Shown piece after piece: positions 45,314-56,686 of a stretch of 64,000 nt of DNA. This stretch comes from Limnohabitans sp. 2KL-51 (lineage in GTDB: Bacteria; Pseudomonadota; Gammaproteobacteria; Burkholderiales; Burkholderiaceae_C): positions 1-64,000 of the forward strand of contig NZ_NESJ01000002.1 of assembly GCF_003063645.1 (NCBI RefSeq), written 5' to 3'. The position numbers and the translations under genes were made by a program. Within the stretch, counting starts at the first letter, position 1; each line of letters starts with the position of its first letter. The notes under the pieces are model-generated. The model was not told where the DNA came from and searched no databases. It was given only the letters and a program-made list of their open reading frames with translations.

Positions 45314-45389
45314 TCCTCAATAGCTCAGTCGGTAGAGCGCCGGACTGTTAATCCGTAGGTCCCTGGTTCGAGCCCAGGTTGAGGAGCCA
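45314..45389 (+). tRNA. tRNA-Asn (anticodon GTT)
   Basis: A complete 76-base cloverleaf with acceptor stem TCCTCAA/TTGAGGA, D-arm AGCTCAGTCGGTAGAGC, anticodon loop CTGTTAA with GTT at 45347-45349, the T-arm CTGG-TTCGAGC-CCAG, discriminator G and an encoded CCA (45387-45389). Its last 25 bases recur exactly at 49060-49084, marking it as the target of an insertion. Confidence 0.97.
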
Positions 45390-45407
45390 GTTAAATCCAA
45401 TAGAAAC

Positions 45408-45440
45408 AAGCACTTAGAAGAAATTCCAAGTGCTTTTTTT
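45408..45440 (+). terminator. Intrinsic terminator after tRNA-Asn
   Basis: AAGCACTT (45408-45415) and AAGTGCTT (45428-45435) with a T tract to 45440. It lies just inside the islet and ends the tRNA transcript in its present arrangement. Confidence 0.88.
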
Positions 45441-45637
45441 CTTGCCTGAAACACTTCTCACCCGATGCTCATTGGCTGCCCTGATTGGATACAGGCTGAA
45501 TGCTGAGCTCGAGCATCCCCAAACAACTCAACGATGGCCAAAAAAGTGACGCCCCACACCGTCATGGACAAGCGCGACCTGGTCTGCAAACGAATGCGAA
45601 GTGATGTTTGGCAACGCCCTGTCAACAGCCCTGCCAG

Positions 45638-46588
45638 CTATTCGCATTCAGACTCGAAAGCATTGATCAATGCACTCAAGCTTGGACCGGGGGAAGTTTC
45701 TCGCCAAACCAGGCCAACATCTCCAATTTCTTGAGTCAATGTCAATGGCAGTGTTCTGAGCACACCATTTTTCTCCAGGTTAGAAGCCGCTGCGCTGGAC
45801 ATGATGGCCAAAGCATTTGTTGAATTCAAAAAAATGGGATTACTGGTCGGTGACACCGATGAAAGCAAAATCCTTGGGAAGGCTATGCCCTCTCGTGCAA
45901 AAGTCATTTCAACGGCATTTCTCAGAGGAGTGCCAAGCGTGGGCATGAGCCAAGGATATGCAGAAATGTCTTTCCATTGAATTTTTTTGCGCGACAAAAG
46001 TGGGTGCTTCAAACCACAAACCACTCGGTGCTGATCTACAAAAAGTCGCTTTTGAGGCAGCCCGGATGCGATGGCACGCGCATCCAGGCGTGTGACCAAT
46101 AAATCGATCTCATTTCTCTCAAATCTGGCCCATAGGCCCGCAGCGACGTCTTCAATCAATGAAAGACTGATGGTGGGGAATTCTTCTTGAAACTTCAACA
46201 GGACATTGGGGACCAGCGACGCAGCAGCCACTTGCATCGCACCCATCCGAACCATGCCAGTGGCACCCGCATTGATGGCGTTGATTTCTTCAACGACACG
46301 TTGCGCATCATTCAACATGCGAACAGCATGTGCCAGCAAGGGTGCAGCCAAAGCCGTTGGCTTTAAAGGTTGGCCGCGAACAAACAAGCGCCCACCCACT
46401 GCCGATTCAATATCCGAAAGCCACTGAGAGACGGCAGGTTGAGTGATGTCCAAAGATCCGGCGGCGGCCGTCAAGCTGCCATGCCTTGAGACAGCCAGCA
46501 ACACCTGCAAATGGCGATATCGAATTCGGCGAAGCAGGTTTTGAGCATCCATTTTTTTCGAATTTGGCTGAATCTTTTTCATAAGCAT
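45638..46588 (-). CDS. LysR-family transcriptional regulator (islet)
   Basis: A 316-residue LysR protein. The helix-turn-helix is RIRYRHLQVLLAVSRHGSLT, then AAAGSLDITQPAVSQWLSDI, then ESAVGGRLFVRG. The effector domain begins near MVRMGAMQVAAASLVPNVLL. The start is not certain: ATG codons at 46588, 46582 and 46552 are in frame, and none has a clear ribosome binding site. It is divergent from the Bug gene across 96 bp and most likely controls the two-gene unit Bug-hydrolase. Codon use is less GC-biased than in the flanking genes. Confidence 0.9.
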   Translation of the reverse strand: MLMKKIQPNSKKMDAQNLLRRIRYRHLQVLLAVSRHGSLTAAAGSLDITQPAVSQWLSDIESAVGGRLFVRGQPLKPTALAAPLLAHAVRMLNDAQRVVEEINAINAGATGMVRMGAMQVAAASLVPNVLLKFQEEFPTISLSLIEDVAAGLWARFERNEIDLLVTRLDARAIASGLPQKRLFVDQHRVVCGLKHPLLSRKKIQWKDISAYPWLMPTLGTPLRNAVEMTFAREGIAFPRILLSSVSPTSNPIFLNSTNALAIMSSAAASNLEKNGVLRTLPLTLTQEIGDVGLVWRETSPGPSLSALINAFESECE

Positions 46589-46684
46589 TTACTAATACCA
46601 ACAGAATCAAATATTCCTTTCAGATTATGCATGGATGCGACATCATGGGCGTTGCCTTAGTCACTTCACTGAAGGATCCATCCG

Positions 46685-47731
46685 ATGAAACACCCTCAAA
46701 ATAAATCAGAGGTCAGCCCCAGCGCAGACCTTGAGCGCCGCACAAGCATTCGTCGCATCGCTCAAAGTGTCAGCGGCCTGGCTTCTATGAGCCTGTTGCC
46801 CAACCTATGGGCGCAGGGTACTGGCGCGAAAGGCGTTTGGCCGAACCAAGCGATTCGGATGATTTCCCCTTGGACCGCTGGCAGTGGGACCGACATCATT
46901 GCAAGGTTGATTGCTGAAAAATTGAGCACTGAATTGGGTGTACCCGTCATCGTGGAGCCCCGCCCTGGTGCTGCTGGCAACATTGGAACCGCGTTGGCTG
47001 CGACTCAGCCTGCCGATGGCAACACATTGTTGGTCACATCGGCCTCTTTTGCGATATCACCGGCCATTTACCGCAACTTAAGTTATGACCCGGTTCGAGA
47101 TTTTGTCCCGGTGACAAAACTGGCCACGGCGCCCCTGCTGGTTCTGGTTCGGGCTGACTCCCCCCTTCGAACCATGGCCGACTTGATTGCCTTGACCAAA
47201 AAAGATCCCAAATCGGTCAATTACGGATCTTTTGGCAATGGTTCCCCCTCGCACTTGATCGGCGAAAGCATCAACCGGCTGGCAGGGATTTCAATGACCC
47301 ACGTTCCCTACTCAACAGGTGGTGCCCCCTTGGACCTGCTGGGTGGACGATTGACAGTGGCCATCCTTGATGCTCTTTCACAAACGCCTCAAGTCAAAGC
47401 CGGGAAGATGCGCGCACTGGCCCTGAACGGCCTGAACAGACTGCCCTCCATCCCTGATGTTCCGACGCTGGTGGAGTCTGGCATTCCTTTTGACACTGTG
47501 GGCTGGCAAGCCGTATTTGCACCAGCGGGTGTGCCTGCTGAAATCATTGAAAAACTGAACAGAACCATCAACCAGATCCTCTCTACCGCTGTGGTTCAAA
47601 CCCAAATTCATGCCGTCGGATGCTTTCCAGTCACGCCGGCCACAACGGCGAATCAATGGGGCGATATGTTCAAAAAAGACGTCCAAACTTGGGCCGATTT
47701 GGTCAAACGCTCGGGTGCAAAAATCGATTGA
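46685..47731 (+). CDS. Bug/TctC-family solute-binding protein (islet)
   Basis: A 348-residue Bug receptor. The N-terminus SIRRIAQSVSGLASMSLLPN (about residues 20-39) followed by LWAQ resembles a Tat-like or long Sec signal. The ligand blocks WPNQAIRMISPWTAGSGTDI and VEPRPGAAGNIGTALAATQP are present, with EPRPG in place of the usual DNKPG. GAAGGA at 46671-46676 supports the ATG at 46685. It is followed after 16 bp by the hydrolase gene. No TctAB subunits are encoded nearby. Confidence 0.92.
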   Translation: MKHPQNKSEVSPSADLERRTSIRRIAQSVSGLASMSLLPNLWAQGTGAKGVWPNQAIRMISPWTAGSGTDIIARLIAEKLSTELGVPVIVEPRPGAAGNIGTALAATQPADGNTLLVTSASFAISPAIYRNLSYDPVRDFVPVTKLATAPLLVLVRADSPLRTMADLIALTKKDPKSVNYGSFGNGSPSHLIGESINRLAGISMTHVPYSTGGAPLDLLGGRLTVAILDALSQTPQVKAGKMRALALNGLNRLPSIPDVPTLVESGIPFDTVGWQAVFAPAGVPAEIIEKLNRTINQILSTAVVQTQIHAVGCFPVTPATTANQWGDMFKKDVQTWADLVKRSGAKID

Positions 47732-47747
47732 ATTTCAGGAATAAAAA

Positions 47748-49040
47748 ATGAACGCGCCAGCAGCCCATGCCATTTTTGAAATTGAAATGCTCTCAGACGT
47801 ACCCTATGGAGAAGGATCCATTGGTTTTGGCACCCCACATCCGAGTTCTCGCCCCTTGACCTTGGACATCTACAAGCCCCTCAATACCGATCGGAATGCC
47901 CTTAAACCTGCTTTGATTTTGTCGCACGGGGGTGCTTATCACCGGGGCTCTAAAACGAATGACGATTTTGAACAAGACGGCCACCACACCACACCGGTCA
48001 CTGAATACTGCAAAATTTTTGCGGCCAGGGGATATGTGTGTTTCAGCTTGGGCTATCGATTAACACAAGAGCTTGCTGCACCACAGGCTGCGCCCATCAA
48101 GCGCAACCGTCAACAAATCAGTCGAGGCCGCATCGACCATGTTCGTGAACTGATGGGTTTGGCACCTGCGACAGACGAAGAAATACTGAACGGCATTGAA
48201 GGCGCATTCGTGGATGTCGCCAGCGCGTTCAGGTTTGTTCAAAGTCATGCTCACCAATGGGGGATTGACCCTCAGCGCATTGCTGTAGGCGGATTTTCAG
48301 CTGGCGCATTCGCCTCCATTTATGCGTCCTACGCTCTGGGCATCAACGCAGCGGCCATCGTTTCCTTGTCAGGTGGCATTGACTTGGATGATGCCGACTA
48401 CTACGTCCATGGCGGTCGAGGTCAGCCGCCGCTTTTGATGTTTTCCAGTGAAATGGACTTGCCCGGCATACACGATCGAACCCTGAATATGGCCAACAAA
48501 GCCGAAGCGAAAGGCATTGGCATCCGTCGGTATTTCGTCCCACAAAAGCCTCATTTTTACGATCGTGACTCTGTGGCTTTACTGGAACAAAACAACATGG
48601 ATGGCGCCATTGAAAAAACCACAGTCGGTATGGCTTTAATTGATTTTTTGGATAAAACCTTGGCGCCTGCAGAGGTGACAGAGCAAACACTCATCGAGTT
48701 TGCCCAAGCCTGGAACAACCACGACATTGATTCACTGATGTCCTACATGAGCGATGGGTGTGTGTTTCATACCTTTACTGGCAGCGAAGCCTGTGGAACC
48801 CGCCAGGTCGGCAAGGAAAACGTTCGCCATGCCTTCATGCAAGCGTGGCAAAACTATCCTGACGCTCAATGGACCCGCGCCAAACACTTTGTTGCTGGGC
48901 AGCGTGGTGTTTCTGAGTGGACTTTTGTCGGCACACGCACATCTGATGGGGCCCGAATCGAAGTAGATGGCTGTGACCTATTCACATTCGAAGGCAACAA
49001 AATCAAAGTCAAAGATTCATGGCGCAAACACCGAATCTAG
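47748..49040 (+). CDS. Alpha/beta-hydrolase fused to a SnoaL-like (NTF2-fold) domain
   Basis: A 430-residue cytoplasmic protein. Residues about 1-305 form an alpha/beta-hydrolase of the esterase/lipase type: the oxyanion motif ILSHGGAYHRGSK (about 57-69), the nucleophile elbow VGGFSAGAFASIYASYA (Ser about 186), an acid in SSEMDLPG and a His in QKPHFYDRDS. Residues about 310-430 form a SnoaL-like domain (FAQAWNNHDIDSLMSYMSDG, then VGTRTSDGARIEVDGCDLF). The pairing is uncommon. With the adjacent Bug receptor it suggests uptake and hydrolysis of an ester or lactone. It ends 19 bp before the islet's right boundary. Confidence 0.85.
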   Translation: MNAPAAHAIFEIEMLSDVPYGEGSIGFGTPHPSSRPLTLDIYKPLNTDRNALKPALILSHGGAYHRGSKTNDDFEQDGHHTTPVTEYCKIFAARGYVCFSLGYRLTQELAAPQAAPIKRNRQQISRGRIDHVRELMGLAPATDEEILNGIEGAFVDVASAFRFVQSHAHQWGIDPQRIAVGGFSAGAFASIYASYALGINAAAIVSLSGGIDLDDADYYVHGGRGQPPLLMFSSEMDLPGIHDRTLNMANKAEAKGIGIRRYFVPQKPHFYDRDSVALLEQNNMDGAIEKTTVGMALIDFLDKTLAPAEVTEQTLIEFAQAWNNHDIDSLMSYMSDGCVFHTFTGSEACGTRQVGKENVRHAFMQAWQNYPDAQWTRAKHFVAGQRGVSEWTFVGTRTSDGARIEVDGCDLFTFEGNKIKVKDSWRKHRI

Positions 49041-49059
49041 AGAGGCCACATCTTGCTGG

Positions 49060-49084
49060 GGTTCGAGCCCAGGTTGAGGAGCCA
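49060..49084 (+). repeat. Direct copy of the tRNA-Asn 3' end (right attachment site)
   Basis: The 25 bases are identical to tRNA positions 45365-45389, from the T-arm through the CCA. The sequence on either side differs from that around the tRNA, so this is a fragment, not a second tRNA gene. Confidence 0.9.
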
Positions 49085-49100
49085 AATCAACAAAGTACAG

Positions 49101-49125
49101 AGCCCACCCACAAGGTGGGCTTTTT
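49101..49125 (+). terminator. Intrinsic terminator right of the islet
   Basis: AGCCCACC-CACAA-GGTGGGCT followed by TTTT. It stands 16 bp after the tRNA fragment, at the distance expected for the original tRNA-Asn terminator before insertion. The hairpin core resembles half of the REPIN-like repeat by chance. Confidence 0.85.
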
Positions 49126-49134
49126 GCTTTTCTA

Positions 49135-49875
49135 TCATGCAAATCCTGATGCTTCGGTATTGGGGCCTACCTTGTCCTGCATCAGGCGCCAGGCCCAGTC
49201 CAGATCAGCCTCCAGTTCCCGACGAGCGGCTTTCGCATCACGTTGCGCCAAGGCTTGCATCAGGCCGTGGTGGTGCAAGGTGCGTGGCGCCCCCTGCTCG
49301 GGGCTGTGGTGGGCCACGGCCACACGCACATAAGGGCCGCTTTGCAGCCACAGGCTGCGAATCATCGACAACAAAGTGGGCGATTGAGCGGCCTCGTACA
49401 ACGTGAAATGGAAGCGCCGATTGGCCTGCAATTCGGCCTCCACATCCCCGGTTTGCAATGCGTGTGAAAACTCGGCATCGGCCACTTCAAGTGCAGCCAA
49501 CAAATGCTCATCCGCGCGCTCGGCAGCCCGCTCGGCCGCATGCCCTTCCACCAAAAGACGGGTCTGGTGAATGTCGTCCAGCCGCTGAACCGACAGGTAC
49601 GGCACGCGAACGGGCCGCTGGGTGGCAGACTCCAACGCCCCCTCGGCCACCAAGCGCCGCAAGGCCTCGCGCACGGGCATCACACTGGTGTGAAACGCGT
49701 CGGCCAAGTCCCTGATTTGTAGCGTTTGCCCGCCCTGCAGACGACCGCAAATCAAGGCGTCCGAGAGTTCGGCATAAATGCGGTCCTGCACCGAATCGCG
49801 CGAGACCGGCCGCAACACCGGCATCGGCGACCGCAGGGATTCTGGGCTGGGGGCATCACGTCGGGGTCGGGCCAT
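49135..49875 (-). CDS. GntR-family regulator (FCD/FadR subfamily)
   Basis: A 246-residue regulator. The winged helix is QDRIYAELSDALICGRLQGG, then QTLQIRDLADAFHTSVMPVR, then EALRRLVAEGAL (about residues 29-80). The C-terminal FCD effector domain (about 98-225) has the metal/ligand residues expected in this fold, including the histidines of NRRFHFTLYEAA and RTLHHHGLMQAL. It is divergent from the TRAP operon, and a perfect palindrome (49922-49933) between them is the likely operator. It probably represses that operon until a carboxylate or sugar-acid ligand is present. Confidence 0.92.
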   Translation of the reverse strand: MARPRRDAPSPESLRSPMPVLRPVSRDSVQDRIYAELSDALICGRLQGGQTLQIRDLADAFHTSVMPVREALRRLVAEGALESATQRPVRVPYLSVQRLDDIHQTRLLVEGHAAERAAERADEHLLAALEVADAEFSHALQTGDVEAELQANRRFHFTLYEAAQSPTLLSMIRSLWLQSGPYVRVAVAHHSPEQGAPRTLHHHGLMQALAQRDAKAARRELEADLDWAWRLMQDKVGPNTEASGFA

Positions 49876-49921
49876 GGGGCAGTATATCCACGCTTGCGTT
49901 GTTCATGAGGGATACCGTATT

Positions 49922-49933
49922 ATGTGATCACAT
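49922..49933. promoter_or_regulatory. Palindromic operator ATGTGATCACAT
   Basis: A perfect 12-bp palindrome, 46 bp upstream of the gntR start and 12 bp before the start of dctQ. Size and position fit a GntR-family dimer site that would block the TRAP operon. Confidence 0.6.
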
Positions 49934-49945
49934 TATGGTAAATAC

Positions 49946-50443
49946 ATGAATTCCAACCCATCCGACCCCCTGCCCGCAGCTGCGCCACGGCCTGCTTTTT
50001 GGTTTGTCCATGTGGCCTCTTGGGTGCTCGCGGCCATGGCCGCTGTGGCCTTTCTAGATGTGGTTCTGCGCATCGCAGGCCGACCGATCACCGGGGCTTA
50101 CGAGCTGACGGCGCTGCTCATGGGCTTGCTGGTGTATGCCACCTTGCCCCTGGTGACAGCCCAAGACGAGCATGTCCGAGCGGGTATCTTGCAGATGTGG
50201 CGAAGTGCGCCAAAGGGCCTGGAGCGCGTGCTGCGCGAACTGCGCAAAATTTTGTCCTGCATGGCCTTGGCTTATCTGGCCTGGGCCCTGTTTCAGTACA
50301 TGCTGCGGGTCGGCGCAGCAGGTGACCGGGCACCGTACATCGAGATTCCATTGTCGTGGGTGGCCGGATTTGGGGCCGTGAGCATGGCGCTTTCAGCGGT
50401 GATGGCCTTGTGGTTCAAGCGCCGTGTCGAGGTGGCCTCATGA
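49946..50443 (+). CDS. TRAP transporter small permease (DctQ)
   Basis: A 165-residue membrane protein with four transmembrane segments, the first at about residues 25-45 (ASWVLAAMAAVAFLDVVLRI). The DctQ hallmark is ITGAYELTALLMGLLVYATL. It joins the large permease DctM in a tripartite, ion-driven carboxylate importer. Its stop overlaps the dctM start (ATGA). The upstream palindrome lies close to the presumed transcription start. Confidence 0.93.
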   Translation: MNSNPSDPLPAAAPRPAFWFVHVASWVLAAMAAVAFLDVVLRIAGRPITGAYELTALLMGLLVYATLPLVTAQDEHVRAGILQMWRSAPKGLERVLRELRKILSCMALAYLAWALFQYMLRVGAAGDRAPYIEIPLSWVAGFGAVSMALSAVMALWFKRRVEVAS

Positions 50444-51729
50444 CCGCTACCTTGATCGCCATGGCCGTGATGCTGGCCTTGATTGCCTTGGAAGTGCCCA
50501 TTGCCGTGGCCATGCTGGTCACGGGCGTGGTCGGCTGCCTGAGCGTCCTGGGTTGGAGCCCCACATTGTTCATGGTGGGTGAAACCGCCTTCAGCACCGT
50601 CAACAACTATTCGCTCACGGTGGTGCCTTTGTTCATCCTGATGGGCAACCTGATCAACGAAGCGGACATCTCGCGTGAGCTGTACCGCGCCACCTACCGT
50701 TTTGTAGGGCATTTGCGTGGCGGCTTGGCGATTGCCACCGTGCTGGCCTGCGCGGGTTTTGCGGCCATTTGTGGCAGCAGCCTGGCCACATCGGCCGCCA
50801 TGACGCGTGTGGCCTACCCCGAGATGAAGCGTTACGGCTACAGCGATGCGCTGGCCACCGGCTGCATCGCATCGGCCGGCACTTTGGGCATCATGATTCC
50901 GCCCAGCGTGGCCCTCATGGTCTACGGCATCATGACCCAGACCGATATCGGCAAGCTGTTCCTTGCCGGTGTTCTGCCCGGCCTGTTGGGCGCCTTGTTG
51001 TATGTAGGCGCGGTCATGGTGTACACATGGCGTCACCCCAAATCGGGTCCGGCAGGCGAGCGCAGCACATGGACAGAACGCTTGCATTCCTTGCGTGGCA
51101 TTGGCAGTGTGGTCCTGTTGTTCGGCTTGGTGATTGGCGGGCTTTATGGTGGTTGGTTCACCCCGACCGAAGCGGCGGGCATCGGCGCTGCAGGCGCCTT
51201 TGCGATGGTGATTGCACGCGGGCGACTGACGCGCAAGTTGCTGGCACAGGTGCTGCGTGAGACCGCGGTCACCACCACCAGCTTGTTTTTCATCTTGGTT
51301 GGCGCATTGGTCTTGTCCAAGTACATCACCATCTCGGGCTTCACACCCTGGTTGGGAGGCGTGTTTCAGGGCCTGGACCTGTCGGCCATGCAATTTCTGC
51401 TCATCATTTGTGCCATGTACTTGGTGCTGGGTTGCTTTTTGGAAAGCATGTCCATGCTTTTGCTGACGCTGCCCATTGTGTTTCCCCTAGTGGTCAGCTA
51501 CGGCATTGACCCGATCTGGTTCGGTGTGCTGATCGTCACCCTCATCGAGGTGGCTCTGATCACCCCACCCGTGGGCATGAACGTCTACATGATGGCCAGC
51601 CAGATTCCATCGGTCCCGCTGAATGTGGTGTTTCGCGGGGCCAGCGCGTTCGTGGCGGCCGACGTGATCCGCCTGGGCATCTTGCTCGCTGTGCCGGCCA
51701 TTGCGTTGTGGCTGCCCTCCATCACCTGA
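50440..51729 (+). CDS. TRAP transporter large permease (DctM)
   Basis: A 429-residue protein with about twelve membrane segments. Typical DctM stretches are TVVPLFILMGNLINEADISR, ASAGTLGIMIPPSVALMVYG and LITPPVGMNVYMMASQIP. I chose the ATG at 50440, which overlaps the dctQ stop; a frame open further upstream is only the coding shadow of dctQ. It forms the ion-coupled translocation unit. Confidence 0.95.
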   Translation: MTATLIAMAVMLALIALEVPIAVAMLVTGVVGCLSVLGWSPTLFMVGETAFSTVNNYSLTVVPLFILMGNLINEADISRELYRATYRFVGHLRGGLAIATVLACAGFAAICGSSLATSAAMTRVAYPEMKRYGYSDALATGCIASAGTLGIMIPPSVALMVYGIMTQTDIGKLFLAGVLPGLLGALLYVGAVMVYTWRHPKSGPAGERSTWTERLHSLRGIGSVVLLFGLVIGGLYGGWFTPTEAAGIGAAGAFAMVIARGRLTRKLLAQVLRETAVTTTSLFFILVGALVLSKYITISGFTPWLGGVFQGLDLSAMQFLLIICAMYLVLGCFLESMSMLLLTLPIVFPLVVSYGIDPIWFGVLIVTLIEVALITPPVGMNVYMMASQIPSVPLNVVFRGASAFVAADVIRLGILLAVPAIALWLPSIT

Positions 51730-51784
51730 TTCTTCCCAAAAATCCTTCGCCCCCTCCATCACCCTCAACCCAAGGAGCTTTCCC

Positions 51785-52825
51785 ATGATCACCCCCCGTT
51801 TTCTGCGTCAATCCCTGCTGATCACTGCACTGGGCAGTCTTGCCCTTGCAGCGCAAGCCCAAACCGTCTGGCGCTTTTCCAACTGGCTGCCCCCCACGCA
51901 CCATGTGGTCACCGAAATGATCCAGCCTTGGGCCGCCGATGTTGAAAAAGCCACCGAGGGTCGCGTCAAAATCCAGGTCTTGCCCGCACTCGGTGCGCCG
52001 CCAGCCCACTTTGACTTGGTCAAAAACGGTGTGGCCGACATCGCATTCAGCGTGCACGCCTACACACCCAACCGCTTCAAGTTCACCGAAATGGGCGAGC
52101 TGCCCTTTACCACCGACCACGCTGTGGTGAACTCGCTGGCTTACTGGCGCACCTACCAAAAACACTTTGCGCAAGCCAACGAACACGAAGGCACCGTCTT
52201 GCTCGGTCTGTGGACCAACGGTTCCTACCAGCTGTTCACCAAGGCCAATGCCTTGACCTCCATGAACGCGGTCAGTGGCATCAAGATCCGTGTGCCCGGC
52301 ACCACGGTCGAAAAAATCACCCGTTCGCTGGGCATGACGCCCATCTCCTCGCCACTGTCTGAAGCCTACGAACAAATCTCGCGGGGCGTGATCCAGGGCA
52401 TGTTCCAGCAAAAGGAAACCGTGGTCGCCTTCAAGATGACCCAACACATGCCCACGGCCTCTTATGTGCCGGGTGGCTTTGCGCATTCCAGCCAGTTCGT
52501 GGTGGTGAACGCCGCCAAGTGGGCAGCCTTGGAGGCACGTGATCGCGCGGCCATTGAAAAGCTCTCGGGTGAAACCATGGTGCGCCGCTTTGCCGCCGTC
52601 TGGCAGGCCAAGGAAGATGACGCAGACCGCCTGTTGGCCGCCGCTGGAGTCAAGGTCACCGACGTGCAAGGCCCCCTGCTGCAAGAGCTGCGCGGCAAGC
52701 TGGCTTTTGTGCAAGACGAATGGCTGGCAGACGCGAGCAAGAAATCCCCTGCGGCCAAACAAGCGCTGGACGAGTACCGTGGCCTCATCACCAGCGTGTC
52801 GCGCGAGTTGGGCGTGAGCAAATGA
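51785..52825 (+). CDS. TRAP transporter periplasmic substrate-binding protein (DctP)
   Basis: A 346-residue exported receptor with a signal peptide ending near ...SLALAAQAQ (about residue 26). The DctP fold is clear from TVWRFSNWLPPTHHVVTEMI, then VKNGVADIAFSVHAY, then GIKIRVPGTTVEKITRSLGM, in which the Arg usually clamps a ligand carboxylate. AAGGAG precedes the ATG at 51785. With DctQ and DctM this makes a complete TRAP system. The ligand is not predictable beyond a probable organic acid. Confidence 0.94.
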   Translation: MITPRFLRQSLLITALGSLALAAQAQTVWRFSNWLPPTHHVVTEMIQPWAADVEKATEGRVKIQVLPALGAPPAHFDLVKNGVADIAFSVHAYTPNRFKFTEMGELPFTTDHAVVNSLAYWRTYQKHFAQANEHEGTVLLGLWTNGSYQLFTKANALTSMNAVSGIKIRVPGTTVEKITRSLGMTPISSPLSEAYEQISRGVIQGMFQQKETVVAFKMTQHMPTASYVPGGFAHSSQFVVVNAAKWAALEARDRAAIEKLSGETMVRRFAAVWQAKEDDADRLLAAAGVKVTDVQGPLLQELRGKLAFVQDEWLADASKKSPAAKQALDEYRGLITSVSRELGVSK

Positions 52826-53193
52826 GCCAGCCCGCAGGCGACGACCAATTTGAATTGTTCGACCTGCGGGTGGAGTGGGAAGGCGATGGTCCTTGCTGGT
52901 GCAAGGCCAAAGCCGGCGACCACTTCGAGCTGCACGGCGAGCAGCTGCATTTTCCGCCGGGGCAAAGCTGGTCCATCTACACCCTGGCGGCGCTGCTGCC
53001 CATCTTGCCCGCCAAGCAGCGCCCCTGCCACCCCAACGACTGGATGAGCACCGACGCCCGCGTGGCCTGCCCCGATCCGAATTGCAAGGCCCGCTTTGTG
53101 ATCCGGCGCTGCGGCACACGGTCGTTTAACCACGCGGCCGTCACTGCAGAGCCTTTGGCCACATCTCCACAAGACCCCTCCAAAAAACCATGA
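52822..53193 (+). CDS. Small conserved protein (TIGR04076-like)
   Basis: A 123-residue soluble protein. The visible pattern is a Cys/Trp-rich start (DGPCWCKAKAGDHFELHGEQ), then SIYTLAALLPILPAKQRP and a pair of Cys residues in ACPDPNCKARFVIRRC, possibly a metal site. I think it belongs to the TIGR04076 family of unknown function. It overlaps both the dctP stop and the aldo/keto reductase start by four bases, so it is firmly part of the operon and may act with the reductase. Confidence 0.72.
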   Translation: MSQPAGDDQFELFDLRVEWEGDGPCWCKAKAGDHFELHGEQLHFPPGQSWSIYTLAALLPILPAKQRPCHPNDWMSTDARVACPDPNCKARFVIRRCGTRSFNHAAVTAEPLATSPQDPSKKP

Positions 53194-54230
53194 GCATTTC
53201 CACCACCGAGCTGGCACCAGGTTACCGCGCGTCACGACTGATCAAGGGCTGCTGGCACTTGGCAGGCGGCCACGGAGAGGTCAACCAAGCGCAAGCTGTG
53301 CAAGACATGGCCGACTTCGTCCAGGCCGGGCTCACCACCTTTGACTGCGCCGACCACTACATCGGCGTGGAAGCCTTGATCGGCCGATTTCGTCGCGAGC
53401 ACCCTGACCTGGCCCGCAAGCTTCAGGTGCACACCAAATGCGTGCCCGACTACGACCGCCTGACCTCATGCGACCGCGCCTACCTCACCGAGATCATCGA
53501 CCGCTCGCTGGAACGTCTGGGCGTGGACCAGCTGGACCTGGTGCAGTTTCACTGGTGGAACTTGGCCCAGCCGGGCTATGTGCAAGCGCTGGGCATCCTG
53601 AGCGATCTGCAACGCGAAGGCAAAATCGCGCACCTCGGGTTGACCAACTTCAACACCGCCGTGACCCGGGAAATCCTGGATGCGGGTATCCCGCTGGTCA
53701 GCACGCAGGTGCAGTACTCCCTGCTGGACAGCCGCCCCAACCAAAGCCTGGTCGCGCTGTGCCAAGAGCGCAGTGTGCAACTCCTTTGCTACGGCACCCT
53801 GGCTGGCGGCCTGCTCAGCGAAGCGTGGCTGGGCCAAGCCGAGCCCACCGAGCCCCTGGCCAACCGCTCACACACCAAATACAAACTGATCATCGAAGAT
53901 TTCGGCGGCTGGGACCTGTTTCAGGAACTGCTGCAAGCCCTGCAGGCCATCGCCACGCGCCATGGCGTGGGCTTGGGTGATGTGGCCACGCGCTGGGTGA
54001 TCGACCGTCCCCAAGTGGGCAGCGCCATCATGGGTTTCACCTCGACGCGCCACCTGCCGGCCACACAACGCATTGAGGCCATGCGCCTGGACGCACAGGA
54101 CCACGCTCTGTTGGCCCCCTTGCTGGCACGGCGCACGGGCCCTGCGGGTGACTGCTACGACATCGAGCGCGACAAGGCAGGCCGTCACGGGCGCATCATG
54201 CGCTACAACCAGAACGAAGGGCGTCACTGA
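53190..54230 (+). CDS. Aldo/keto reductase
   Basis: A 346-residue NAD(P)H-dependent (beta/alpha)8 oxidoreductase. The catalytic Tyr is in FDCADHYIGVEALIGRF (about residues 50-66), the Lys in QVHTKCVPDY and the His-like position in DLVQFHWWNL. The C-terminal cofactor region is GSAIMGFTSTRHL. It is the last gene of the TRAP operon and overlaps the preceding small gene, so it probably reduces or oxidises the imported compound. It ends with a hairpin towards the converging XRE gene. Confidence 0.93.
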   Translation: MSISTTELAPGYRASRLIKGCWHLAGGHGEVNQAQAVQDMADFVQAGLTTFDCADHYIGVEALIGRFRREHPDLARKLQVHTKCVPDYDRLTSCDRAYLTEIIDRSLERLGVDQLDLVQFHWWNLAQPGYVQALGILSDLQREGKIAHLGLTNFNTAVTREILDAGIPLVSTQVQYSLLDSRPNQSLVALCQERSVQLLCYGTLAGGLLSEAWLGQAEPTEPLANRSHTKYKLIIEDFGGWDLFQELLQALQAIATRHGVGLGDVATRWVIDRPQVGSAIMGFTSTRHLPATQRIEAMRLDAQDHALLAPLLARRTGPAGDCYDIERDKAGRHGRIMRYNQNEGRH

Positions 54231-54245
54231 CAACGCGCGCAGTTC

Positions 54246-54314
54246 GGGGTCAGAAAGTGAATGCAGACCGCCAAACGCACAGCTGAACTTGGGGCCCCCC
54301 TCGCCCTCTGACCC
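54246..54314. terminator. Hairpin between convergent genes
   Basis: GGGTCAGA (54247-54254) is inverted as TCTGACCC (54307-54314) around a 52-base loop. It lies between the aldo/keto reductase stop and the XRE stop. There is no T tract, so a role as bidirectional terminator is only possible. Confidence 0.35.
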
Positions 54315-54316
54315 AC

Positions 54317-54769
54317 TTATTTCGCAGTTGGTTCTTGTGCGTGCGCCGCCAAACGCTCCGCCACTTGTTTTTTACCCAGCTTGCGCACGGCCGCGATGGC
54401 CTGAAGCTGCGCGGCGCGGGGCCTGGACTTGCCCGTCTCCCAGTGGTAGACCGACTGGTTGGACACGCCCAGCAACTGGGCCATCTGGGTGGCCGACACA
54501 CCGAATTTTTTGCGCAAGGACGCAAAGCCATCGGCGCGAAAGCGCAAGCCCTGGGGCTCATCTTCTTCCTTGGGGGGTGTGGTGGGGCGGGCAGACGTTT
54601 TGGCCAAGCGGCGCACCACGGCTTCCAAGCTGGCGATGCGTCTTTTGAGATCGGCGATCTCGGCGCGGTGCGTGGCTTGAGCCTTTTTCAGAACCGTCGC
54701 TTGCGCGCGCGTTTCTTTTTTGGCGATGCGTGAAATCTCGGTTTTCAACTGGGCAGCAAAGTTACTCAT
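54317..54769 (-). CDS. XRE-type helix-turn-helix protein with N-terminal coiled coil
   Basis: A 150-residue regulator. Residues about 1-60 are rich in K, R, E and A with a heptad pattern (ATHRAEIADLKRRIASLEAV) and probably form a coiled coil for dimerisation. Residues about 85-135 hold the HTH (LRKKFGVSATQMAQLLGVSN, then QSVYHWETGKSRPR). GGAGAG precedes the ATG. The palindrome CGTTCAGAACG lies 12 bp upstream of the start, next to a TATGAT, which suggests autoregulation. Its other targets are unknown. Confidence 0.88.
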   Translation of the reverse strand: MSNFAAQLKTEISRIAKKETRAQATVLKKAQATHRAEIADLKRRIASLEAVVRRLAKTSARPTTPPKEEDEPQGLRFRADGFASLRKKFGVSATQMAQLLGVSNQSVYHWETGKSRPRAAQLQAIAAVRKLGKKQVAERLAAHAQEPTAK

Positions 54770-54781
54770 GTTCTCTCCATT

Positions 54782-54801
54782 CGTTCAGAACGTGGATCAT
54801 A
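54782..54801 (-). promoter_or_regulatory. Palindrome and -10-like box upstream of the XRE gene
   Basis: CGTTCAGAACG (54782-54792) is a perfect palindrome about its central base. On the minus strand TATGAT (54801-54796) precedes it as a -10-like hexamer; I see no good -35. A repressor bound here would sit at the transcription start. Confidence 0.45.
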
Positions 54802-55017
54802 CGCAAACCGCATGCCCCATCAGCACGAACCAACTGGCCCCGAGGGATCGCCTGTTCATCACGACGGGTCCTGCTCGCCCTGTCACCGGTTGTCACCTGA
54901 GCAGCAGGCCCGAGCGCAAAGGCTGCTTAAATACAGGCACTGTAGGCCCAAACTGCCACATCAGCCCCATCGGCCCCATCGGCCAAACCACCTCAAACAC
55001 TTCAACAGGAGCCCTCC

Positions 55018-55785
55018 ATGACCACATCCCTCAAAGGCCAAATCGCCTGGATCACCGGCGGGGGCAGCGGCATCGGGCTGGCGGGTGCCATGGCCTTGGC
55101 CAAGGATGGCGTTCATGTGGTGATTTCGGGCCGGAACGCCGCCACCAATGCCAGCGCTTTGGCGACGCTGCAGACCCTGGGCAGTGCAGAGGCCCTGCTG
55201 CTGGACGTGGCCGACAAGCACGCCGTCAAGGCGGCGGCGCAACAAATTCTGGACAAACATGGGCGAATCGACATCTTGGTCACCAGTGCGGGCACCAATG
55301 CCACGCAGCGCAATTTCGACGTGGTCACGCCCGAGGCCTGGGACGATGTAGTGGCCATCAACCTGTCGGGCCTGTTTTATTGCGTGCACGCCGTCCTGCC
55401 CGCCATGCGCCAGCAGCAAAGCGGCTTGATCATCAACGTGTCGTCTTGGGCGGGTCTGTATGCGTCCAAGCTCACCGGCCCGGCTTACAACGCCACCAAA
55501 CGTGCCGTGCTGGCCCTGACCGAGTCCATCAACATGGAAGAATGCACGCACGGCATCCGCGCCACCTCGCTCTTGCCCGGAGAGGTGGCCACGCCCATTC
55601 TGAACAAGCGGCCCGTCCCGCCGTCTGCCGAGCAACGCGAACTGATGGTCCAGGCCGAAGACATGGGCCAGGCCATCTTGTTTGTGGCGCAGATGCCTGA
55701 GCGCACCTGCATCAACGAGTTGATCATCTCGCCCACCTTCAACCGCTTTTACACGGGCGGTCTGGAGACACCGCCCAAGCGCTGA
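55018..55785 (+). CDS. SDR-family oxidoreductase
   Basis: A 255-residue classical short-chain dehydrogenase/reductase. The cofactor motif ITGGGSGIGLAGAMALAKDG is near residues 12-31, the NAG-equivalent is TSAGTN, the catalytic Ser is in INVSSWAGLYASK and YxxxK is YNATKRAV. AGGAG lies 7 bases before the ATG. The gene is 11 bp from an EamA permease gene and may form an operon with it. The substrate is unknown. Confidence 0.93.
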   Translation: MTTSLKGQIAWITGGGSGIGLAGAMALAKDGVHVVISGRNAATNASALATLQTLGSAEALLLDVADKHAVKAAAQQILDKHGRIDILVTSAGTNATQRNFDVVTPEAWDDVVAINLSGLFYCVHAVLPAMRQQQSGLIINVSSWAGLYASKLTGPAYNATKRAVLALTESINMEECTHGIRATSLLPGEVATPILNKRPVPPSAEQRELMVQAEDMGQAILFVAQMPERTCINELIISPTFNRFYTGGLETPPKR

Positions 55786-55795
55786 GCCCGGCCCG

Positions 55796-56686
55796 ATGAG
55801 CCAGCTTTTCAGCGACAGCGCCCGGCACCGCCGCATCGGCATTGCGCTGGTGACGGTCACCACCTTGATGTTTGCGCTGCTCGACGCCTCGGCCAAGTGG
55901 CTGGTGATCACCCTGCCGGTGATGCAAGTGGTGTGGATGCGCTTTCTCACGCATTCGCTGTTTTCCATTGCGGTTTTTGCGCCGTCGGTCAAAGGCGATT
56001 TGCTGCGCTGGCGGCACCCGCGCTTGCAGCTGCTGCGCGGCTTGATGCTGGCGTCCATGACCGCGCTGAACTTCTGGGCCTTGCAATATTTGCAGTTGGC
56101 CGAGACCGGAGCCATGCAGTTTTCCGTGCCGATTTTGATCGCCTTGCTCTCAGCCTGGTGGTTGGGCGAGCGGCTGGACGCCAAACGCTGGCTGGCGATT
56201 GCAGTGGGCTTTTTGGGCGTGCTGGTCATCATCCGCCCGGGCAGCCAGGGCTTTCACCCGGCGATCTTGCTGTCAGCGCTCAACGCCATTTTGTACGCCC
56301 TGTTCAACATGATGACGCGCTACCTGGCCAGCAGTGAAAACCCGGCCACCACGCAACTGACCTCGGCGGTGGTGGCCACCTTGGCGCTGACGCCTTTTGC
56401 ACTGTGGCAATGGCAACAACCGGCCACGCTGCTCGAGTGGTTCGTGATGGCCTTGGCCGGTTTGTGCGGCGGCATTGGCCACTACTTTGTGGCCGTGGCG
56501 CACCGCTATGCGTCAGCGGCGGTGTTGGGCCCGTTTTTGTACCAGCAAATTGTTTACATGACCGTGTTGGGATGGCTGGTGTTTGACCAGGTGCCCGACA
56601 TGGCCGTGGTGCTGGGCGCCTTGGTGGTGGTGGCCAGCGGCCTGTATTTGCTGTGGCGCGAGTTTCAGGGCGAAGGTCCCAAATAA
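55796..56686 (+). CDS. EamA/DMT-family permease
   Basis: A 296-residue inner-membrane transporter with ten segments in two EamA halves: the first begins ALVTVTTLMFALLDASAKWL, and the second contains LNAILYALFNMMTRYLASSE and ends QIVYMTVLGWLVFDQVP. It follows the SDR gene by 11 bp. A composite REPIN-like element begins 14 bp after the stop. Confidence 0.9.
   Translation: MSQLFSDSARHRRIGIALVTVTTLMFALLDASAKWLVITLPVMQVVWMRFLTHSLFSIAVFAPSVKGDLLRWRHPRLQLLRGLMLASMTALNFWALQYLQLAETGAMQFSVPILIALLSAWWLGERLDAKRWLAIAVGFLGVLVIIRPGSQGFHPAILLSALNAILYALFNMMTRYLASSENPATTQLTSAVVATLALTPFALWQWQQPATLLEWFVMALAGLCGGIGHYFVAVAHRYASAAVLGPFLYQQIVYMTVLGWLVFDQVPDMAVVLGALVVVASGLYLLWREFQGEGPK

Follow-up and report, generated by a model that had tools for sequence, protein, structure and literature searches.

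How can a short run of catabolic-looking genes come to lie between a tRNA gene and a second copy of that gene's own 3' end, when no integrase is encoded beside it? The question is raised by the 64,000-nucleotide stretch of Limnohabitans sp. 2KL-51 analysed here (contig NZ_NESJ01000002.1, positions 1–64,000; hereafter the window, from the genome G000), in which the interval 45390–49084—the islet—follows directly upon tRNA-Asn. We found this interval to be an insertion, and we consider it reasonably probable that it is a catabolic cassette, resembling a cis-mobilizable element (CIME), of an additive flexible island anchored at the tRNA gene, and that it was placed there by an integrase that either acted in trans or has since disappeared.

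Boundaries of the islet and its empty site

The target gene, tRNA-Asn (GTT), presumably regenerated upon insertion, occupies 45314–45389 on the + strand (ARAGORN; Rfam tRNA, 68.7 bits). Its last 25 bases, GGTTCGAGCCCAGGTTGAGGAGCCA, which comprise the T arm and the acceptor 3' end and constitute the left, attL-like copy of the repeat (45365–45389, +), recur with 25/25 identity 3.7 kb on, at 49060–49084 (+), where the right, attR-like copy represents a displaced tRNA-Asn 3' end. A preliminary description of the sequence had pointed to this exact recurrence, and the right edge proved to be sharp: the best local alignment of that joint with the last 45 bases of tRNA-Asn comprised precisely these 25 bases, and its score was never reached when the junction was shuffled 500 times. 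The A/T-richness noted in the same description was borne out by computation, the G+C content being 0.514 over 45390–49059 versus 0.622 in the left flank (20 kb) and 0.618 in the right (to the window's end). Furthermore, the lowest-G+C 3.67-kb stretches of the window, scanned in 50-bp steps, fell on the islet, and the G+C content at third codon positions was 0.50–0.57 in its three genes versus 0.72–0.79 in the six flanking genes computed. The companion observation, that REPIN-like repeats avoid the segment, was correct to the letter, none of the nine clusters of 14-mers present in at least four copies in the window lying there, but is weightless as an argument because only about half a cluster (~0.5) would be expected in the islet.

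To learn how the segment is distributed we searched 90 genomes of the genus (completeness 58–100%) with the whole of it, and found it in two only: G000 itself and a metagenome-assembled genome (G084; contig CAIZHQ010000005.1, to which the stretch L090 belongs), whose islet is ~90% identical to that of the window. In the 40 other scoring genomes the matches were shorter than 150 bases. The empty site that had been predicted, joining 45389 to 49085, was indeed encountered: in G015, which is collinear with the window over 1.8 kb to the left and 7.4 kb to the right, tRNA-Asn is followed directly by its native terminator—displaced in the window to 49099–49123 (+), as recognised through comparison with relatives—and by the GntR gene, and the same arrangement, with no repeat left, was observed in G061, G073 and G082. 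Seven genomes had tRNA-Asn and the native GntR–TRAP (tripartite ATP-independent periplasmic transporter) block on one fetched stretch; those four are empty, and the remaining three (G000, G084 and G051) are occupied. In G022 the block lies on another contig than the tRNA, without its first 80 bases and without the repeat. Because four genomes of the same genus run from tRNA-Asn straight into the native terminator and the GntR–TRAP block, the segment is an insertion and not a deletion, and the site-specific insertion at a tRNA 3' end first proposed from the letters agrees with the exact repeat as well as with the empty site in related species. The two findings that were to speak against that proposal, namely the same segment in all relatives or a base composition equal to that of the flanks, did not occur.

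That the segment were instead ancestral, and precisely deleted from the empty-site genomes, is scarcely credible to us. In a tree of the downstream flank the empty G073 does group, weakly supported, with G084 and G022 to the exclusion of G000, the order among the four not being settled; yet the tree of both flanks leaves G061 and G015 outside and assigns G073 and G082, along with G051 and G048, to a separate well-supported group, while G000, G084, G022 and G072 stand together with the branching among them not settled. The upstream flank alone (seven genomes) gave a tree differing from that of both flanks in grouping G051 with G000 at 56%, and several branches of these local trees had bootstrap values of 36–61%. 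An ancestral segment, moreover, would have to be reconciled with its foreign composition, with the failure to find it in 88 of the 90 genomes, and with deletions that left tRNA, terminator and GntR gene in four genomes and no trace of the repeat.

Content and age of the islet

Pfam searches of the three main open reading frames (ORFs) confirmed the LysR, Bug and hydrolase genes initially read from the sequence. The LysR-family regulator (45638–46588, −; PF03466/PF00126), whose best NCBIfam match was PcaQ (TIGR02424) at 170 bits, far under the 303.8-bit cut-off, is divergent from a Bug/TctC periplasmic substrate-binding protein (46685–47731, +; PF03401, E 8.5e-61); 16 bp past the latter's gene begins that of an esterase (BD-FAE/alpha-beta hydrolase) fused to a SnoaL-like domain (47748–49040, +; PF20434, PF12680). 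A protein search with this last enzyme returned 254 homologues, and among the best 120 of these the top full-length matches had 98 and 86% identity, most others being at ~55–65%. Judged by these families, the cargo looks built for the uptake and breakdown of some compound, that is, like a catabolic cassette, in which the LysR protein would sense a metabolite, the Bug protein would bind a carboxylate for uptake, and the esterase–SnoaL enzyme would open an ester or lactone. We rejected the Bug gene as a signature of such islets: with 126 TctC matches in the 4.59 Mb of G000 (~1 per 36 kb), one per islet is only mildly unusual.

At its left end, in the former place of the tRNA's native terminator, the islet brings a hairpin followed by a T-run (45408–45440, +; stem scan and sequence reading); the scan reported the 12-pair stem (45408–45435) on the − strand only, and the T-run on the + strand was read directly in the sequence. 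Terminator-like sequence resembling this end also follows tRNA-Val(CAC) and displaced tRNA-Val 3' fragments in the genus (L122, 7440–7570; L123, 3750–3850; L103).

The absence of an integrase, already remarked upon in the preliminary description, held in a profile search of the whole genome, in which the islet's contig (C12) had no match to PF00589. No integrase, phage or conjugation gene was recognised in either copy of the islet, that of the window or that of L090, nor could any of the islet's genes be identified as one for replication or packaging.

Between G000 and L090 the synonymous divergence (dS) was 0.27 for the LysR gene, 0.22 for Bug and 0.31 for the esterase, and 0.35, 0.45, 0.23 and 0.27 for four flank genes; the islet, then, has diverged about as much as its surroundings. 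The ratio of nonsynonymous to synonymous divergence (dN/dS) was 0.12–0.18 in the islet genes and 0.04–0.08 in the flank genes. Since the ORFs are intact, their dN/dS is this low and their divergence is like that of the flanks, the cargo is not decaying but under purifying selection, so that the term "decayed", formerly applied to the element, does not suit its genes. In view of the similar dS of islet and flanks and of the presence in two of 90 genomes, one old gain in the lineage of G000 and G084 would be the simplest account.

Further occupants of tRNA-Asn in the genus

The locus is more crowded in G084. There the order (L090, 1–17290) is tRNA-Asn, islet A, a 42-nt tRNA fragment (37/42 identical), islet B—the window's islet—a 25-nt fragment (24/25) and the GntR flank; the interval from the hydrolase stop codon to the right repeat is ~174 bp longer in this islet B than in the window. 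Islet A, which is likewise without an integrase and is 100% identical in L090 and in the G084 assembly, encodes two Rieske oxygenases with LigXa-type C-termini, between which lie the genes of a Bug protein and an esterase. Either islet A was a later arrival or it has been lost from G000, and its position next to the tRNA favours the later joining. A gene cluster like islet A occurs in G008 (L204), inverted and ~30 bp from tRNA-Arg; we discarded it as an instance of the same insertion route, there being no second tRNA-Arg end on its 10.7-kb contig.

This stacking, and the further cassettes that relatives carry at tRNA-Asn, lay beyond what the window alone had disclosed. Our survey comprised 75 tRNA-Asn stretches; orientation was possible for 74, of which 58 extend at least 3 kb past the tRNA. 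Since the tRNA-Asn 3' fragments found on other contigs (21 of 22 stretches) were mostly not assigned to an element, the count of occupied sites is a minimum. In G003 (L083, 12736–17229) a 4.45-kb segment with no recognised tyrosine integrase is bounded by a 45-nt repeat of the tRNA-Asn 3' half and carries a CoA-transferase, an enoyl-CoA hydratase, TctC and IclR, all four of its ORFs of at least 100 aa being Pfam-named. A 6.9-kb TRAP/GntR catabolic cassette of G+C 0.50, likewise with no recognised tyrosine integrase, lies exactly between tRNA-Asn and the native terminator in G051 (L174, 383–7310), with an amidohydrolase, an oxidoreductase, GntR, DctP, DctM, DctQ and a short-chain dehydrogenase/reductase. 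The corresponding segment of G001 extends over 10.7 kb with a 45-nt repeat and no PF00589 match in the stretch; its cargo, from 10 of 12 ORFs scanned, includes a transposase-type rve protein, an FMN (flavin mononucleotide) reductase, an aquaporin-like and a phosphatase-type protein, a helix-turn-helix (HTH) protein, a major-facilitator transporter (MFS), GAPDH and phosphonate ABC (ATP-binding cassette) transporter genes. Two further segments are small: that of G077 (L181, 1–1100), ~1 kb bounded by tRNA-Asn ends, in which a T-arm-type copy of the end precedes a copy of the terminator and the one ORF, of 126 aa, has a P-loop-like start, and that of G074 (L197, 1079–2059), where the 3' half of tRNA-Asn occurs twice, as 45-nt copies 0.9 kb apart, with a 102-aa ORF that by eye resembles an HTH antitoxin. 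Neither of these has a periplasmic binding protein, which was present in the other five of the seven integrase-less segments examined (window B, L090 A, G003, G051 and G001). The survey also flagged possible insertions in G016, G040, G053 and G071; a flag in G050 was dismissed, as the relatives' terminator lies directly 3' of its tRNA.

Integrases do reside at this tRNA in other relatives. A 461-aa integrase starts 126 bases past tRNA-Asn in G010 and G045, and the enzymes next to the tRNA in G010 (Pfam-confirmed), G045, G022 (truncated where its contig stops) and G085 are 91–97% identical; in G010 a 45-nt repeat follows 20.8 kb on. G058 has a 436-aa integrase-like ORF at tRNA-Asn with a 49-nt repeat 11.7 kb on, and ORFs similar to it were found within 5 kb of tRNA-Asn in G004, G046, G049, G052 and G055. 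In G001 the 10.7-kb segment has tRNA-Asn on one side and, directly on the other, an element with an integrase that shares 70% identity with the G010 enzyme, which layout is what would be expected if the integrase of a resident element placed or carried a passenger.

Those integrase matches of G000 that lie near a tRNA or tmRNA gene are at tRNA-Phe (two, one of them broken), at tRNA-Lys (broken) and ~0.8 kb past the tmRNA gene. Matches on C4, C8, C17, C34 (two) and C9 (one) had no tRNA fragment within 2.5 kb, according to a panel of 13 tRNA types, and for those on C1 and C3, which presumably are XerC/XerD-like, the 8 kb retrieved contained no tRNA. On contig C9 (L207, 6112–14217) the tRNA-Phe site is itself a tandem: the tRNA is followed by an intact integrase and, 6.7 kb on, by a tRNA-Phe fragment with a broken integrase behind it.

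Placement of the islet and its kindred elements

Among the sites at which tyrosine integrases cut tRNA genes is the T arm and acceptor end, which the 25-bp repeat spans. In the account we favour, the islet in a circular form would carry the 25-bp core of T arm and acceptor end, which core a tyrosine integrase for which the islet has no gene, either supplied in trans or since lost, would recombine with that of tRNA-Asn; the tRNA gene would thereby be rebuilt from the islet's copy, its old 3' end would come to lie 3.7 kb further on, and the rebuilt gene would receive a terminator from the left end of the islet. Because a second cassette lies between the tRNA and the islet in G084, the locus would appear to grow by accretion, with the most recent cassette nearest the tRNA, in the manner of CIMEs and additive flexible islands.

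Several results weigh against this account. The repeats measured for integrase-bearing elements have 45 nt (G010) and 49 nt (G058) versus the 25 nt of the islet, for which reason the islet's repeat was probably made by an enzyme different from those of these two elements. The tRNA-Asn integrase that the preliminary description proposed to look for elsewhere in the genome did not turn up in G000, judging from the positions of the genome's integrase matches. The G051 cassette, which lies at the same spot, had no tRNA repeat detectable in a shuffle test, so that a repeat-less route, or a loss of the repeat, does exist at tRNA-Asn. Both repeats around the islet in G084 share a T-to-C change missing from the tRNA, for which one insertion event does not account; it might stem from gene conversion or from islet A having replaced the tRNA end. 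Finally, the local trees do not settle whether G000 and G084 are closest relatives. Neither a helper nor a vehicle that would bear out the earlier term "satellite-like" was found for the islet; as to a phage vehicle, a pattern search of viral contigs disclosed no close relative of the esterase–SnoaL enzyme.

If, as one alternative, the islet were the remnant of a larger integrase-bearing island that lost its integrase, transfer or phage genes after insertion, it would be a true CIME by decay. Integrase-bearing elements do occur at tRNA-Asn in several relatives, and the ~174 bp extra at the right end in L090 indicate that this end changed in one lineage; we nonetheless think such a history unlikely, given that neither copy has a recognisable gene of those kinds and that both have the same compact content at ~10% divergence, whereby any loss must predate the split of G000 and G084. 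Still less likely, in our estimation, is natural transformation or some other homologous recombination, through tRNA-Asn and the flanks, with a relative already carrying the islet. To this second alternative the repeat-less G051 cassette would lend itself, as would the resemblance of the islet's left end to the tRNA-adjacent terminator sequence of the genus. It would, however, leave the first insertion unexplained; the exact 25-bp repeat with its sharp edge is of the sort that site-specific insertion leaves, and the similar dS of islet and flanks argues against a recent exchange between G000 and G084.

Tycheposons and phage satellites are like the islet in having a tRNA target, niche cargo and, putatively in its case, a dependence on others for movement. 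Satellites of the P4 or PICI (phage-inducible chromosomal island) type carry an integrase together with replication or capsid-hijack genes; none of the three islet genes is of these kinds. Both groups are mentioned in PMC10872708 and PMC11389934, and tycheposons are described in the former as encoding a tyrosine recombinase, whereas the islet has none.

Cassettes added at tRNA or tmRNA genes with short end repeats, integrase-less elements and accretion are treated in PMC3146451, PMC10872708, PMC4119200, PMC7771536, PMC5704250 and PMC11389934. The islet is like the additive flexible islands of Alteromonas (PMC4119200), Ca. Actinomarinales (PMC7771536) and Methylophilaceae (fGI-2, with 20-bp tRNA-Lys repeats; PMC10872708) in its conserved tRNA target, in cassettes that are present or absent among relatives, and in the tRNA-end copy that marks the cassette's end—a copy not detected for the G051 cassette—and some of those islands have metabolic cargo as well; they differ in tRNA, host genus and cargo, the cassettes here being small single operons, five of seven with a periplasmic binding protein. 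With CIMEs (PMC5704250) the islet shares the lack of integration and transfer genes, its three Pfam-named ORFs recurring in L090, the retention of att-like core repeats at both ends, and tandem accretion, as in L090; accretion beside an integrase-bearing element was seen in G001 and not with the window's islet. It differs in that no remnant of an integrative and conjugative or mobilizable element (ICE/IME) was recognised in its two copies, nor any other sign of such descent, and its mobilisation, present or past, is putative. Comparable too are the Dehalococcoides ssrA islands (PMC3146451), which occur in tandem between 20-bp repeats of the 3' end of an RNA gene, are inserted in the T loop and carry niche metabolic cargo, and of which some have no integration module; there the enzyme is a serine recombinase and the target a tmRNA gene, whereas here the target is tRNA-Asn and the enzymes in relatives are tyrosine integrases. 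The kind is thus known from Dehalococcoides, Alteromonas and Methylophilaceae, and the example is new; no title among the matches listed for Burkholderiales tRNA-Asn islands, or among the 20 of 1,222 listed for Limnohabitans islands, concerned this locus, which negative, subscription journals being outside its scope, says little.

The islet provides a clean case of a catabolic operon gained one cassette at a time by way of a cassette without its own mover, which island scans requiring an integrase would miss. Moreover, within one genus the site is seen empty, occupied once and occupied twice, unrelated cassettes lie at the same point, and elements with an integrase of their own stand at this tRNA; with all these states at hand the question of who inserts integrase-less islets becomes directly testable. 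More speculatively, and with considerable doubt on our part, tRNA-Asn might serve in this genus as a capture site for compact catabolic cassettes—a periplasmic receptor, usually a regulator, and enzymes, with no tyrosine integrase—that would be exchanged in trans through the integrases of tRNA-Asn elements passing by. The locus would then be to metabolism what arrays of integrase-less cassettes are in integrons, the tRNA 3' end playing the part of attC.

The native right flank begins with a GntR/FCD regulator (49135–49875, −; Pfam and comparison with relatives), and the GntR–TRAP block runs to ~54240. In some relatives no more than ~260 bases separate tRNA-Asn from sequence homologous to that of the window from ~54340, 54890 or 55005–55030 onward, so that this block, within 49085–56670 of the window, may itself be an older addition at the same point; no tRNA remnant was detectable at 54339 or 55005, where 352 and 152 of 500 shuffles, respectively, scored as high.

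Lastly, 5' halves of tRNA-Asn (35–41 nt) without the rest of the gene were observed in G001 (L125), G006 (L086) and G008 (L120–L121), in the first two with a 350-aa integrase match ~1 kb away, which suggests elements inserting from the other side of the anticodon loop.

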